Below, one piece after another: positions 1,569 to 7,129 of a stretch of DNA of 40,178 bases (position 1 is the first letter of the stretch; each line of letters starts with the position of its first letter). Below the pieces are notes generated by a model, which ran no database searches, was not told the DNA's origin, and was given only the letters and a program-made list of their open reading frames with translations. The DNA comes from Promethearchaeota archaeon (GTDB lineage Archaea; Asgardarchaeota; Lokiarchaeia; Sigyniarchaeales; SOKP01), in the NCBI GenBank assembly GCA_019058425.1, contig JAHPYZ010000044.1:1-40178 (forward strand), in the 5' to 3' direction. Position numbers and translations under genes: made by a program.

Positions 1569-2567
1569 ATGTTAACTCCAGAACAAATTAAAGAAGTTTT
1601 AAAAAATGATGTGGTCAACCTTCGATTCCATGCAAGAGGAGGACAAGGTGGAGTTACCGCTTCGAATTTATGTGTAGAAGCTTTTTATGGTTATGGTGTT
1701 TGTCAACCCCGTTTTGGTGCTGAAAGGATGGGTTCTCCAACTGAAAGTTACGTAAGACTTTCATCAAATGAAGAATTAGTAAGAACCAATGAGCAAGTTT
1801 ATGGACCTCATTTTGTTTCAGTATTAGATCCATCTCTTTTAGGAGAAATTAATGTTACAGCTGGTATGCCTAAAGGAGGGTGGTTAATTGTGAATACAGT
1901 TATGGATCAAGTTTCATTACAAGAGGTAGTCGGACGAAAAGATATCAATGTGGCAACTATTGATGCAACACGGATAGCAATGGAAGTCTTAGGGAGAAAT
2001 ATAACTAATACTATAATATTAGGTGCTTTAATTCGAGTCTCTCATCTCTTTACATTAGATGAATTATCTGATGCAATTATGAGAAGATTTAAAGGAGCCA
2101 TTGCAGGAAAAAATATTCAAGCTATAAAACAAGCTATAGAAGAAACATGCGTATATGATCTTGGAATTGATATCGATTTTGCTTTAGATACTAAAGTACC
2201 TTGGCAACAAGTAAGACCTGAACTTCCTGGATATAAAGAGATGGATAAAGCAGGAGTATGGTATTGTGACGAGGAGATTATTCCATATGGAAGTTCTCAG
2301 GTACAAACGGGAACATGGGGTGAATGGGAAATTATATGGGATAGAGAAAAATGTACCGATTGTGCTCAATGTTGGTATATCTGCCCAGATTTTGCCATAA
2401 TCCGAGCAAAGGGAGATGATGGACTATGGCATATGGAGGGAATTGATAATTTTCATTGCAAATCATGTCAGAATTGTATTAATATATGTCCTGTAGAAGC
2501 TATAAGTAAACAATTAAAACAAGGTCCTGCTTCTTGTGCAGTGCCTGAGGAAGAAGGAGGTGAATAG
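1569..2567 (+). CDS. porGD: 2-oxoacid:ferredoxin oxidoreductase, fused gamma-delta subunit
   Basis: Residues about 15-200 are the gamma subunit of the pyruvate/2-oxoisovalerate:ferredoxin oxidoreductase family, with the typical FHARGGQGGVTAS start, the PRFGAERMGSP segment and LDPSLL. Residues about 240-325 are the delta (ferredoxin) subunit, with two 4Fe-4S motifs: CTDCAQCWYICP and CKSCQNCINICP. In many archaea these are separate genes (PorG and PorD); here they are one 332-residue polypeptide. The product would pass electrons from the alpha-beta active site to ferredoxin in the cytoplasm. It is first in a GD-A-B operon, and its stop lies close before the alpha start. A 143-base gap upstream with a TTTATTTTA stretch near 1519 may hold the promoter. 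Substrate (pyruvate versus branched-chain 2-oxoacid) cannot be settled by reading. Confidence 0.92.
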   Translation: MLTPEQIKEVLKNDVVNLRFHARGGQGGVTASNLCVEAFYGYGVCQPRFGAERMGSPTESYVRLSSNEELVRTNEQVYGPHFVSVLDPSLLGEINVTAGMPKGGWLIVNTVMDQVSLQEVVGRKDINVATIDATRIAMEVLGRNITNTIILGALIRVSHLFTLDELSDAIMRRFKGAIAGKNIQAIKQAIEETCVYDLGIDIDFALDTKVPWQQVRPELPGYKEMDKAGVWYCDEEIIPYGSSQVQTGTWGEWEIIWDREKCTDCAQCWYICPDFAIIRAKGDDGLWHMEGIDNFHCKSCQNCINICPVEAISKQLKQGPASCAVPEEEGGE

Positions 2568-2586
2568 AACCATTAGTGTAGAACCA

Positions 2587-3801
2587 ATGCGTATTTTTTT
2601 CAAGGAAATTAAAGAACCAATCGAAACCACAATGATTGGAAACTATGCTGTAGCAGGAGGTGTAACACAGACCGATCCAGATGTTATATGTGCATTTCCA
2701 ATTACACCTCAAACTCAATCTGTGGAAGGATTATCTGATGTAGTTCATCATGGAAGATTGAAAGCCGCCTTTATAAATGTTGAATCTGAATTAGCTGCAA
2801 TAAGCTATTCAACAGCAGCTTGTGCAGCTGGAGCGAGAACTTTTACTGCTACAGCATCACAAGGTTATTTATTGATGACTGAAGCTTTACCAATGGCAGT
2901 AGGATGGCGTGTACCCTTAACCATGATGATTTCAGCAAGAGCTTTTAATTCTCCTAACTTATCAATTTGGAATAGTTGGGAATATGTGCAAACTAACTCT
3001 GAATTAGGGTGGAATTGTATTGTTTCTGAGAACGTCCAAGAGACATATGATGCCGCTATATTATCAGTTATGATTTCAGAGGATTCTTTATTTCCAACAA
3101 TGTTTGTCCATGACGGTTTTATTATTTCTCATTCAGTACAGAAATTAACCCTCATCCCTGATGAAATTGTTAGAAATTTGACTCCAAAAAAGCCAAGACA
3201 CCACATAAATACTAAACACCCCGGTACTTGGGGTGGAATCGTGACTCCGGATTATTTCATGGAAGGCAGAAGAAACTTAGAGGAGGCTAAAAAACCGGTC
3301 CTAGGAATCATGAGAAAGTGTTTCAACGATTTTACGAAAGCTACTGGACGTGAATATGACTTAATAGAAACCTTTAATCTCGATAATTCATCAAAAACAG
3401 CATTTCTTACAATGGGATCTATGTGTGGAAACATTATTAGCTGGATGACAAAAAACAGAGATATAGGTTTAATAAAAATTCGCGCTTTCAGACCATTTCC
3501 TTATGAAGAATTACAAAAAATAGTGCGGGAACATAATATCGAGAAAATAATTATATTAGAAAAATCAGATTCATTAAACGGACTTTTACCACCATTTTCT
3601 ATGACAATTGCTTCAGCTTTATATCCACTTGGAACTTTATTTAGAAGTTTTATTGTAGGTTTAGGTGGTCGAGATGTTACGAGGGATGAATTTGATATAG
3701 CAAAAAAGAAAATGTCCACTATCACAGATATGAAAGGGCAATTATATTCTTATCTTGGTGTTAGAGAATCAAAAGATAAAATTTTGGGGGTGGATAGATA
3801 A
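2587..3801 (+). CDS. porA: 2-oxoacid:ferredoxin oxidoreductase alpha subunit
   Basis: Alpha subunit carrying the pyrimidine-binding half of the thiamine diphosphate site. Recognisable family blocks are AFPITPQTQSVEG (about 37-49), VESELAAIS, RTFTATASQGYLLM, the TMGSMCGN segment in the C-terminal part, and GLGGRDVTRDEF near the end. Length (about 404 residues) matches archaeal PorA. The frame is open back to a GTG at 2536 that would overlap the previous gene, but I prefer ATG 2587 because family members begin a few residues before this point. A strong GGAGG sits at 2556-2560, rather far from this ATG, so an intermediate non-ATG start (for example ATT 2572) is possible. The stop is one base before the beta subunit ATG. 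Confidence 0.9.
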   Translation: MRIFFKEIKEPIETTMIGNYAVAGGVTQTDPDVICAFPITPQTQSVEGLSDVVHHGRLKAAFINVESELAAISYSTAACAAGARTFTATASQGYLLMTEALPMAVGWRVPLTMMISARAFNSPNLSIWNSWEYVQTNSELGWNCIVSENVQETYDAAILSVMISEDSLFPTMFVHDGFIISHSVQKLTLIPDEIVRNLTPKKPRHHINTKHPGTWGGIVTPDYFMEGRRNLEEAKKPVLGIMRKCFNDFTKATGREYDLIETFNLDNSSKTAFLTMGSMCGNIISWMTKNRDIGLIKIRAFRPFPYEELQKIVREHNIEKIIILEKSDSLNGLLPPFSMTIASALYPLGTLFRSFIVGLGGRDVTRDEFDIAKKKMSTITDMKGQLYSYLGVRESKDKILGVDR

Positions 3802-3802
3802 G

Positions 3803-4891
3803 ATGTCTCAACCAGAAAGAAATATAATAAAAATGGAAGATTTACTTGCGAGAGAAGGAAAATCTAATGTTTTATTCTTTAACTATGATAATGAAGCATT
3901 TATGAATACTGGTATACAAGAAAGTGGAGGGACCCCCCCATTTGCATCCACAACAACTGGTCCTGCAGGAGAGAAAATACCAGGAAAAGTTGGAGTAAAA
4001 CAAGATTTAGTTACCCCTTTCGCTTTCTATGGATCAAATTCATTATTCTTAGCAACTTTGAATCCCGCATACCCTAATGATTTTATGGGAAAAGTAATGG
4101 AAGCTTTAAAGACTAATGGTTCTTCTTTTGTCCAAGCTTATTCTGATTGTATGAGAGGATGGCGACATCCGGCAGAAGATGCTGTTAAAATATCAAAATT
4201 AGCAACAGATTGTGGATACTGGCCTCTTTATACTATTCGAGTAAGGGATGGTGTACCAACATTCTCATATTACAGAGGATTAGATATAGATAAAGATAAA
4301 TTTGTGGAATATTTGAGATCTATGGGACGATTTAGGCACTTATTCAAGCCAAAGTTTATGGAAAAAGAAATTGACGAAATAATTTACTATACAGAACAGA
4401 GGAATAAAAAGCTAAAAGGATTAATAGAACAATTTGGAGCAGACAAACCAGTTGATATTTACAGAATTAATAGAAAAGCTTTAGAACCACAAACCCACTT
4501 ACATCCAGGTCATGGATTATGCCCAGGATGTGGAGCAGGAATGGTGCTTAATCAAATGGCTACAGCAGCAAGTAAAGTTGCGGGTGATAATATCATTTAC
4601 GTGAATAATACCTCGTGTTCTGAGGTTTCAACCTCAAAAGACAATGTAAGTTCTTGGCGTGTTCCATGGGTTCATCATTTATTTGAATCTGGTGCAACTG
4701 TAGCAGATGCCATAAGTACCACTTATAAAATACGTAAAGCAAAAGGTTTATATGAAGGAGAAGTGCCTTATGTCATTCATATTGGAGGAGATGGTTCAAC
4801 TTACGATATCGGATTCCAATTTCTTAAAGCTGCTCTAATAAGAACAAGCACACTAGTCGAAATGCACGAATATTTAAAAAATCAAAAATAA
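3803..4891 (+). CDS. porB: 2-oxoacid:ferredoxin oxidoreductase beta subunit, circularly permuted
   Basis: Every PorB block is present but the two halves are swapped. The protein begins with what is normally the second half: NVLFFNYDNEAFMNTGIQ (22-39), the cysteine segment SDCMRGWR (114-121), and VEYLRSMGRFRHLF (168-181). After a linker (about 182-232) comes what is normally the N-terminal half: HPGHGLCPGCGAG (234-246), NNTSCSEV (268-275), RVPWVHHLFES (286-296) and the diphosphate/Mg motif GGDGSTYDIGFQ (328-339). All four expected 4Fe-4S cysteines remain (Cys240, Cys243, Cys272, Cys116). The thiamine-diphosphate signature, normally GDG followed about 30 residues later by the Asn of YDNEA, is split between the C and N termini. 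ATG 3803 follows GGGGGTGG (3786-3793) and the alpha stop by one base. The frame is uninterrupted, so this looks functional rather than degenerate. Confidence 0.9.
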   Translation: MSQPERNIIKMEDLLAREGKSNVLFFNYDNEAFMNTGIQESGGTPPFASTTTGPAGEKIPGKVGVKQDLVTPFAFYGSNSLFLATLNPAYPNDFMGKVMEALKTNGSSFVQAYSDCMRGWRHPAEDAVKISKLATDCGYWPLYTIRVRDGVPTFSYYRGLDIDKDKFVEYLRSMGRFRHLFKPKFMEKEIDEIIYYTEQRNKKLKGLIEQFGADKPVDIYRINRKALEPQTHLHPGHGLCPGCGAGMVLNQMATAASKVAGDNIIYVNNTSCSEVSTSKDNVSSWRVPWVHHLFESGATVADAISTTYKIRKAKGLYEGEVPYVIHIGGDGSTYDIGFQFLKAALIRTSTLVEMHEYLKNQK

Positions 4892-6739: not shown

Positions 6740-7129
6740 TTAACGATATGCATATTCTTTTTTGTAGTATTCCATCATATCATTAATAGCAGGATCAAGT
6801 AGAGATTTTTCGTTGGGATCTTCTAAGATTTTAACCAATTCATCCTTTACAATCTTAAGAATTTGATCGATTGATTTAATTCTCTCATCGGGGGTTGCGT
6901 CAACTAATCCCAAAAGATCTCTTTTATGTTCTATTTGCCATTTACTTACTGCACGCCAACCAATACCTTTAGCGGCTAATACTTCCATTGATATATACTT
7001 AAGAACAATTTTTACGAATTCATTAAATATTACGTGCTGTTCTTGAGCCATATGAACATTTTTAAAATACTCTTCCGCAGCTTTTAGTGCTTTTGGTTTA
7101 AAACTCTTTTCAGGAATCTTTTCAGGCAT
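6740..7129 (-). CDS. Hypothetical helical protein, 129 residues
   Basis: Not recognised. It has an ATG start and no membrane segment. The sequence looks mostly alpha-helical, with long amphipathic stretches (about 13-55 and 80-128) rich in Lys and Glu, a central WRAVSKWQIEHKRDLLGL segment, and an aromatic basic C terminus (YYKKEYAYR). Composition is in keeping with a real soluble protein. It is divergent from the crotonase-family gene, with about 130 bases between the two starts that include a TATA-like box for the plus-strand gene. No function is proposed. Confidence 0.7.
   Translation of the reverse strand: MPEKIPEKSFKPKALKAAEEYFKNVHMAQEQHVIFNEFVKIVLKYISMEVLAAKGIGWRAVSKWQIEHKRDLLGLVDATPDERIKSIDQILKIVKDELVKILEDPNEKSLLDPAINDMMEYYKKEYAYR

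Follow-up and report, generated by a model that had tools for sequence, protein, structure and literature searches.

In the solved ferredoxin-dependent 2-oxoacid oxidoreductases, thiamine diphosphate (ThDP) lies between the alpha and beta subunits and the CxGC loop carries the proximal cluster, according to the excerpted parts of PMC5020499; the same parts describe StOFOR, where Mg is held by the GDG residues 89b-91b and by Asn118b. The solved chains closest to the protein presented here are the PFOR beta subunit of Methanosarcina acetivorans (PDB 9bt4_C) and, as second best sequence match, the oxalate oxidoreductase beta subunit of Moorella thermoacetica (5c4i_C), which has the canonical order of halves. 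The protein is encoded in a 40,178-nucleotide stretch of DNA (the window; contig JAHPYZ010000044.1) from a Promethearchaeota archaeon of the Lokiarchaeia. Its open reading frame (ORF), at 3803-4891 and with no stop within its 362 amino acids, specifies a 2-oxoacid:ferredoxin oxidoreductase beta subunit of the PorB type whose two halves stand in swapped order. The layout of the gene is as follows.

3803..4891, + strand: circularly permuted beta subunit (PorB type), 362 amino acids, from the ATG at 3803, identified by profile and PDB matches
3803..3883, + strand: new N-terminus (residues 1-27), ahead of YDNE
3866..4345, + strand: canonical C-terminal half, placed first (residues 22-181), with Asn30 (Mg) and Cys116 (cluster)
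4343..4519, + strand: junction of the natural C-tail and the natural N-head (residues 181-239)
4502..4843, + strand: canonical N-terminal half, placed second (residues 234-347), with Cys240, Cys243, Cys272 and GDG (329-331)
4844..4888, + strand: new C-terminus (residues 348-362), past the GDG helix

Comparison with 9bt4_C (E 3.5e-48) aligns residues 22-193 of the window protein with chain residues 118-282, and residues 228-347 with 5-115; 5c4i_C (E 3.5e-44) is also matched in two pieces of exchanged order, and the NCBIfam PorB model PRK11865 (E 7.5e-63) in two stretches. A hidden Markov model (HMM) of 37 canonical-order betas finds its positions 124-303 at residues 17-207 and its positions 12-131 at residues 229-352, with the 8 positions 124-131 matched twice, and it returns two domains in swapped order in all seven permuted proteins shown, the window protein among them. 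These two-piece matches bear out the claim of an earlier reading made from the DNA letters alone (the sequence-only reading) that the C-terminal half comes first and the N-terminal half second in one unbroken frame. Both halves are homologous to 9bt4_C, with 33% identity in the Foldseek-aligned part, and the window protein shares with 9bt4_C and PRK11865 the same four cysteines, the GDG and DNE/NTG residues and the same kind of alpha, gamma and delta partners. It differs from 9bt4_C in its swapped halves, in its broken Asp-to-Asn spacing and in the fusion of the natural ends. Residues 24, 27, 52 and 225 of 5c4i_C, which we take to be its cluster ligands, align with Cys240, Cys243, Cys272 and Cys116. 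The sequence-only reading had quoted the canonical order for PorB of Pyrococcus furiosus; the solved relative found is that of M. acetivorans. The closest canonical sequences found are betas of other classes of the phylum (L129, L130, L131, L134 and L141), all in canonical order and 39-44% identical to the window protein in the C-terminal half, a figure that reaches up to 47% in G166.

The reverse comparison used a profile of 52 permuted proteins, which matches single canonical proteins in two pieces. When canonical proteins are doubled head to tail, the match becomes one continuous stretch in the eight examples shown; for L134_c0 the two single matches of 107.5 and 161.4 bits give way to one of 274.7 bits.

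The spacing of motifs locates the old and new ends. From the Asp of GDG to the Asn of the NE motif there are 28 residues in all 37 canonical betas. This spacing is broken in the window protein, where Asn30 near the N-terminus precedes Asp330 near the C-terminus, and the ThDP signature is divided between the termini as the sequence-only reading had proposed. Between RFRHL and CxGC lie 59 residues. In the 37 canonical betas the C-tail is 24-37 residues long (median 30); N-heads come to 6-22 (median 21.5, n=26, a minimum since only 22 residues before CxGC were kept), or about 18-28 by inspection. The junction thus approximates a natural C-tail plus a natural N-head, and the old ends were seemingly fused with little or nothing added; of the roughly 50-residue linker proposed earlier, the joining of the natural ends holds, and a separate new linker is not evident. 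The new ends extend 27 residues ahead of YDNE and 15 past the GDG helix, and they overlap by the eight doubled profile positions. Across the 52 permuted ORFs the distance from YDNE to CxGC is 212 or 215 residues. Judged from its sequence, the protein is a true natural circular permutation that retains the cofactor residues.

Nine residues (C116, C240, C243, C272, D330, N30, N35, W289 and H291) are identical in 52/52 permuted proteins, which agrees with the earlier claim of a permutation that keeps its cofactor residues, and a 32-row alignment from the same loci concurs in that the cluster cysteines, D330 and N30 are invariant. The same four cluster cysteines occur in 37/37 canonical betas. Because the filter that selected the 52 required the CxGC, GDG-DIG and NE..TG motifs, invariance there adds little; the other two cysteines were not part of the filter, and none of the nine excluded loci lacked a motif within an otherwise complete ORF. 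In a tree of 19 of the 52 permuted sequences and the 37 canonical betas, for which the halves were rearranged to canonical order, all the permuted sequences lie on the same side of a branch with support 100/100, present in 100% of 200 bootstrap trees. The tree separates them from all canonical betas, and the stem branch of the permuted clade carries 1.57 changes per column. The ratio of nonsynonymous to synonymous substitution rates (dN/dS) is 0.039-0.058 across five pairs, and the permuted gene is under strong purifying selection.

The distribution of the permuted order was surveyed in two ways. A pattern scan of one genome per species (84,980 species), with patterns taken from the window protein and a reach confined to close relatives, yielded 60 relatives in records labelled Lokiarchaeota/Lokiarchaeia, Helarchaeota, Sigynarchaeota and, in one case, Bathyarchaeota. 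The sequence-only reading had pointed to related genomes as the place where a standard order would undo it; instead, 51 of the 60 relatives have a complete ORF in the permuted order (52 with the window), at 52-93% identity to the window protein. The nine remaining loci comprise four with a short insert, one of which (L046) additionally hits a contig end, four that run off the contig, and one with truncation at codon 36. In a survey of 227 genomes of the phylum, the gene was found in 67 of the 83 belonging to the window's class, which the labels of the scan records indicate to be Lokiarchaeia: 66 with a best E < 1e-100 and G141, where a contig ends in a fragment of 83% identity. It is present in 14/19 genomes of the window's own genus, 37/46 of other genera of the family, 13/14 of other families of the order and 3/4 of other orders of the class. 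Among the matches listed for the other classes it occurs in 0/144 genomes, a very divergent copy being possible; none of those listed, at a best E of 5e-39, covers both halves. In 20 loci from genomes lacking the permuted gene, 19 of them of other classes and one (G159) of the window's own order, the N-terminal half precedes the C-terminal half on one strand in every case. The permuted beta would have arisen once, in an ancestor of most Lokiarchaeia, and may prove useful as a marker for that class. As a separate observation, the Bathyarchaeota-labelled record is a 3.7-kb contig (L056, WJJB01000299.1) with a Sigynarchaeota-like permuted porB, either a mislabelled bin or a transfer.

Annotation based on domains can overlook the gene, since the window protein scores 18.6 bits with Pfam TPP_enzyme_C, below the cut-off of 21.9; its two canonical paralogues in the genome reach 69.5 and 64.0 bits. 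Among permuted relatives, 31/32 are matched at E <= 10 (best E 2.1e-6), and some outscore the window protein. No permuted PorB was found among the matches listed from titles and abstracts and from open-licence PMC, a scope that leaves most subscription papers and bioRxiv outside, and the earlier statement that no PorB of this form had been described stands within it. The protein is a real, conserved and apparently undescribed permuted beta of a known enzyme family. It is unusual for a catalytic subunit of central carbon metabolism to be circularly permuted in nature, with a cofactor motif split between the ends; the case offers a direct test of the extent to which a ThDP/4Fe-4S enzyme depends on the order of its chain to fold and to assemble its cofactors. 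The host archaea belong to a group related to the ancestors of eukaryotes.

We regard the protein as very probably a working beta subunit, naturally permuted and of single origin, that belongs to a ferredoxin-dependent 2-oxoacid oxidoreductase in the POR/VOR/oxalate-oxidoreductase branch. The chain would run from the strand before YDNEAFMNTG through the former C-terminus into the former N-terminus and end past the GDG helix. The folded halves would close one ThDP-Mg site, with Asp330 supplied from near the C-terminus and Asn30 from near the N-terminus, while Cys240, Cys243 and Cys272 together with Cys116 would bind one proximal 4Fe-4S cluster. Activity of the permuted enzyme is predicted from these sequence features. 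An AlphaFold model built with 32 relatives in the alignment has a predicted TM-score (pTM) of 0.81, and Foldseek gives 21 hits with E <= 0.001, every one of them a POR-family chain.

Several results weigh against this reading. Doubling the permuted protein joined the two matches of the canonical profile in 0/52 cases, none gaining >50 bits, perhaps because of some 30 extra residues at the new ends. The mean predicted local distance difference test score (pLDDT) of the model is 71.5, with values <50 at residues 32-42, 45-68, 175-184, 235-239 and 271-294; the poor cofactor loops may perhaps be due to the absence of alpha and cofactors from the model. Foldseek, a sequential aligner, superposes the model on 9bt4_C with a TM of only 0.41 and a root-mean-square deviation of 7.8. 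As it cannot swap halves, the comparison at a TM of about 0.4 supports the fold family and not the order. The gene is also missing from the matches in 16/83 genomes of the class, including several that are nearly complete, which makes it non-essential, and in the window's genome two canonical enzymes coexist with the permuted one, which is thus a third.

The permuted beta would pair with an alpha subunit and a fused gamma-delta subunit encoded directly upstream.

1569..2567, + strand: gamma and delta subunits fused in one ORF, in ordinary order (POR domain followed by 4Fe-4S motifs, Fer4)
2536..3801, + strand: porA, alpha subunit in ordinary order (POR_N then PFOR_II), exact start uncertain

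Across 37 loci, two of which repeat a genome, alpha adjoins the permuted beta in 36 and gamma-delta in 33; the genes flanking the operon vary among genomes, with no constant neighbour outside it. The alpha subunit scores 303.8 bits with the PorA_Arch model and, aligned with 9bt4_B, retains PITPQT, VESE and the Arg within the ARA motif, which we assume to be substrate and ThDP contacts. Operons of other classes have gamma and delta in different reading frames in 16/16 cases with both matched, unlike the single ORF of the window. The two complete canonical-order betas of the window's genome (C43:20577-21455 and C116:12234-13112) sit in one porCDAB-like and one porDAB-like cluster; delta is a separate ORF in these clusters, and gamma-delta is one ORF in the permuted operon. 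A PorB model match with E < 1e-99 is present in 80/83 genomes of the class. As this goes beyond the 7.5e-63 of the permuted protein, canonical betas appear nearly general in the class, and the canonical sequences nearest to the permuted beta come mostly from other classes.

It remains to weigh what else the gene could be. A rearranged contig, produced in assembly or binning and mimicking a permutation, has a negligible chance of being the explanation. All 60 scan records are titled as metagenome-assembled genomes (MAG) and contamination of the window's genome is 7.4%, but the permuted order recurs with near-constant spacing in 52 ORFs from many assemblies and is found in the chromosome record CP070831.1 and in the single-contig 4.36-Mb genome G087. 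We rejected the artefact on this recurrence in relatives, since a full permuted ORF in 51 of 60 is not an assembly error. The sequence-only reading had also considered that a complete canonical porB might exist elsewhere in the genome and the permuted copy be unexpressed; the canonical genes do exist, two of them, but a dead copy was rejected on the dN/dS values, because a gene so strongly conserved is not one. That the protein has given up catalysis and acts as a structural, regulatory or electron-carrying subunit would fit a third paralogue alongside two canonical enzymes and the long stem branch, yet we hold it improbable, as the cluster and Mg residues are invariant and dN/dS is about 0.05. 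The most serious alternative, to which we give slightly less than an even chance, departs from our interpretation in substrate alone: an active enzyme that is specific to the class and uses a 2-oxoacid other than pyruvate. The two PorB-type betas already in the genome and the length of the stem branch speak for it, as does a PorB score of 212.5 bits far under the NCBIfam equivalog cut-off of 405, although canonical betas of the class likewise miss that cut-off (0/83 genomes above it). On the other side, the top models are pyruvate ones, with PorB at 212.5 bits against 184.4 for oxalate oxidoreductase beta and 173.6 for the VOR-type beta, and PorA_Arch leading for alpha, while the varying neighbour genes offer no hint of a substrate. 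We lean towards a 2-oxoacid as substrate with ferredoxin as acceptor; pyruvate, which the model scores favour, is perhaps that acid.

The permutation itself probably arose when a beta gene was duplicated head to tail and the outer parts were then lost, since near-complete natural ends that are fused and a short overlap at the new ends suggest tandem duplication and trimming. A gene split, with the halves later fused in reverse order, would leave much the same end product, and no duplicated intermediate was found in this analysis. We nevertheless think this route unlikely: the junction holds about a whole natural C-tail and N-head and some 8 profile positions recur at the new ends, both of which duplication with trimming would predict, and the N- and C-halves adjoin in canonical order in the 20 loci from genomes without the permuted gene.

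In four relatives (L040, L046, L061 and L064) the permuted porB is broken by an insert of 30 or 31 nt at, or a few nt from, the active-site codons that follow MNTG, equivalent to about position 3913 of the window. The inserts are unlike in sequence and each folds into its own hairpin; mononucleotide shuffles fold as well in 65, 10, 0 and 30 of 2000 trials for L040, L046, L061 and L064, and the fold z-scores of insert plus flanks are -1.3, -0.5, -4.3 and -2.2 in the same order. A strict bulge-helix-bulge scan, with cuts in two 3-nt bulges, gives a protein-restoring solution in 3/4, ranked first in L040 and L046 and second in L061, whose top solution fails. L064 fits the motif by eye alone, with a bulged base, and in L046 the minimum-energy fold of a longer stretch differs from the bulge-helix-bulge form. 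The motif is not specific, as a comparable solution exists in 21/22 insert-free relatives, controls hand-picked from the 52 full ORFs, one of which (L060) was cut at the wrong place. The remainder of the insert-bearing genes is open for 237-326 codons; in six pairs the proportion of nonsynonymous differences (pN) is 0.05-0.15 against 0.70-0.88 for synonymous ones (pS), and for the two pairs with finite dS the dN/dS values are 0.028 and 0.065. Since the rest of these genes is open and strongly conserved, the insert is probably removed from the RNA. The inserts are best read as archaeal bulge-helix-bulge pre-mRNA introns, with splicing predicted from the DNA; translational bypassing of the insert is less likely. 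Three of the four loci (all but L046) are placed in the tree, where two changes are needed to explain the trait.

As far as the excerpt of PMC2738675 describes them, the cbf5 pre-mRNA introns of Crenarchaeota are similarly very short, hairpin-forming and lineage-patchy, with bulge-helix-bulge-like ends in a protein gene; the present inserts differ in lying in a metabolic gene, in occurring in Lokiarchaeia and in being known from DNA alone. No Asgard pre-mRNA intron was found among the matches listed, within the same literature scope as above, and the insert, if spliced, would extend archaeal pre-mRNA introns to Asgard archaea. As a tentative account, which we rate somewhat below an even chance, one duplication-and-trimming event would have founded, in Lokiarchaeia, a class-specific permuted ThDP/iron-sulfur enzyme with a substrate of its own, whose active-site codons later served mobile DNA as an insertion site, leaving spliced bulge-helix-bulge introns in an Asgard metabolic gene. 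If the one-event reading is true, a motif of otherwise fixed spacing was cut.

Other rearrangements are seen around porB in relatives. In E44_bin85, contig L065 (4001-4108) has porGD-porA and the first 36 porB codons only, and on contig L049 (3994-5089) a complete porB comes after unrelated genes; 115 bp, at 93%, are common to both contigs. It looks like an integrative element inserted close to the intron site, as pieced together from two separate contigs. Scraps of the porB 3' end occur at L095:2050-2400 (- strand), L015:2079-2231, L030:6072-6275, L034:6150-6248 and L047:2888-3091 and in L096, and most of these loci also hold a full or longer porB copy. In L095 an FrhB-like gene lies between the intact porB and the scrap, and beyond the scrap come two small ORFs and then a homologue of the window gene 6740-7129, a layout that would fit the arrival of a new porB with incoming DNA.
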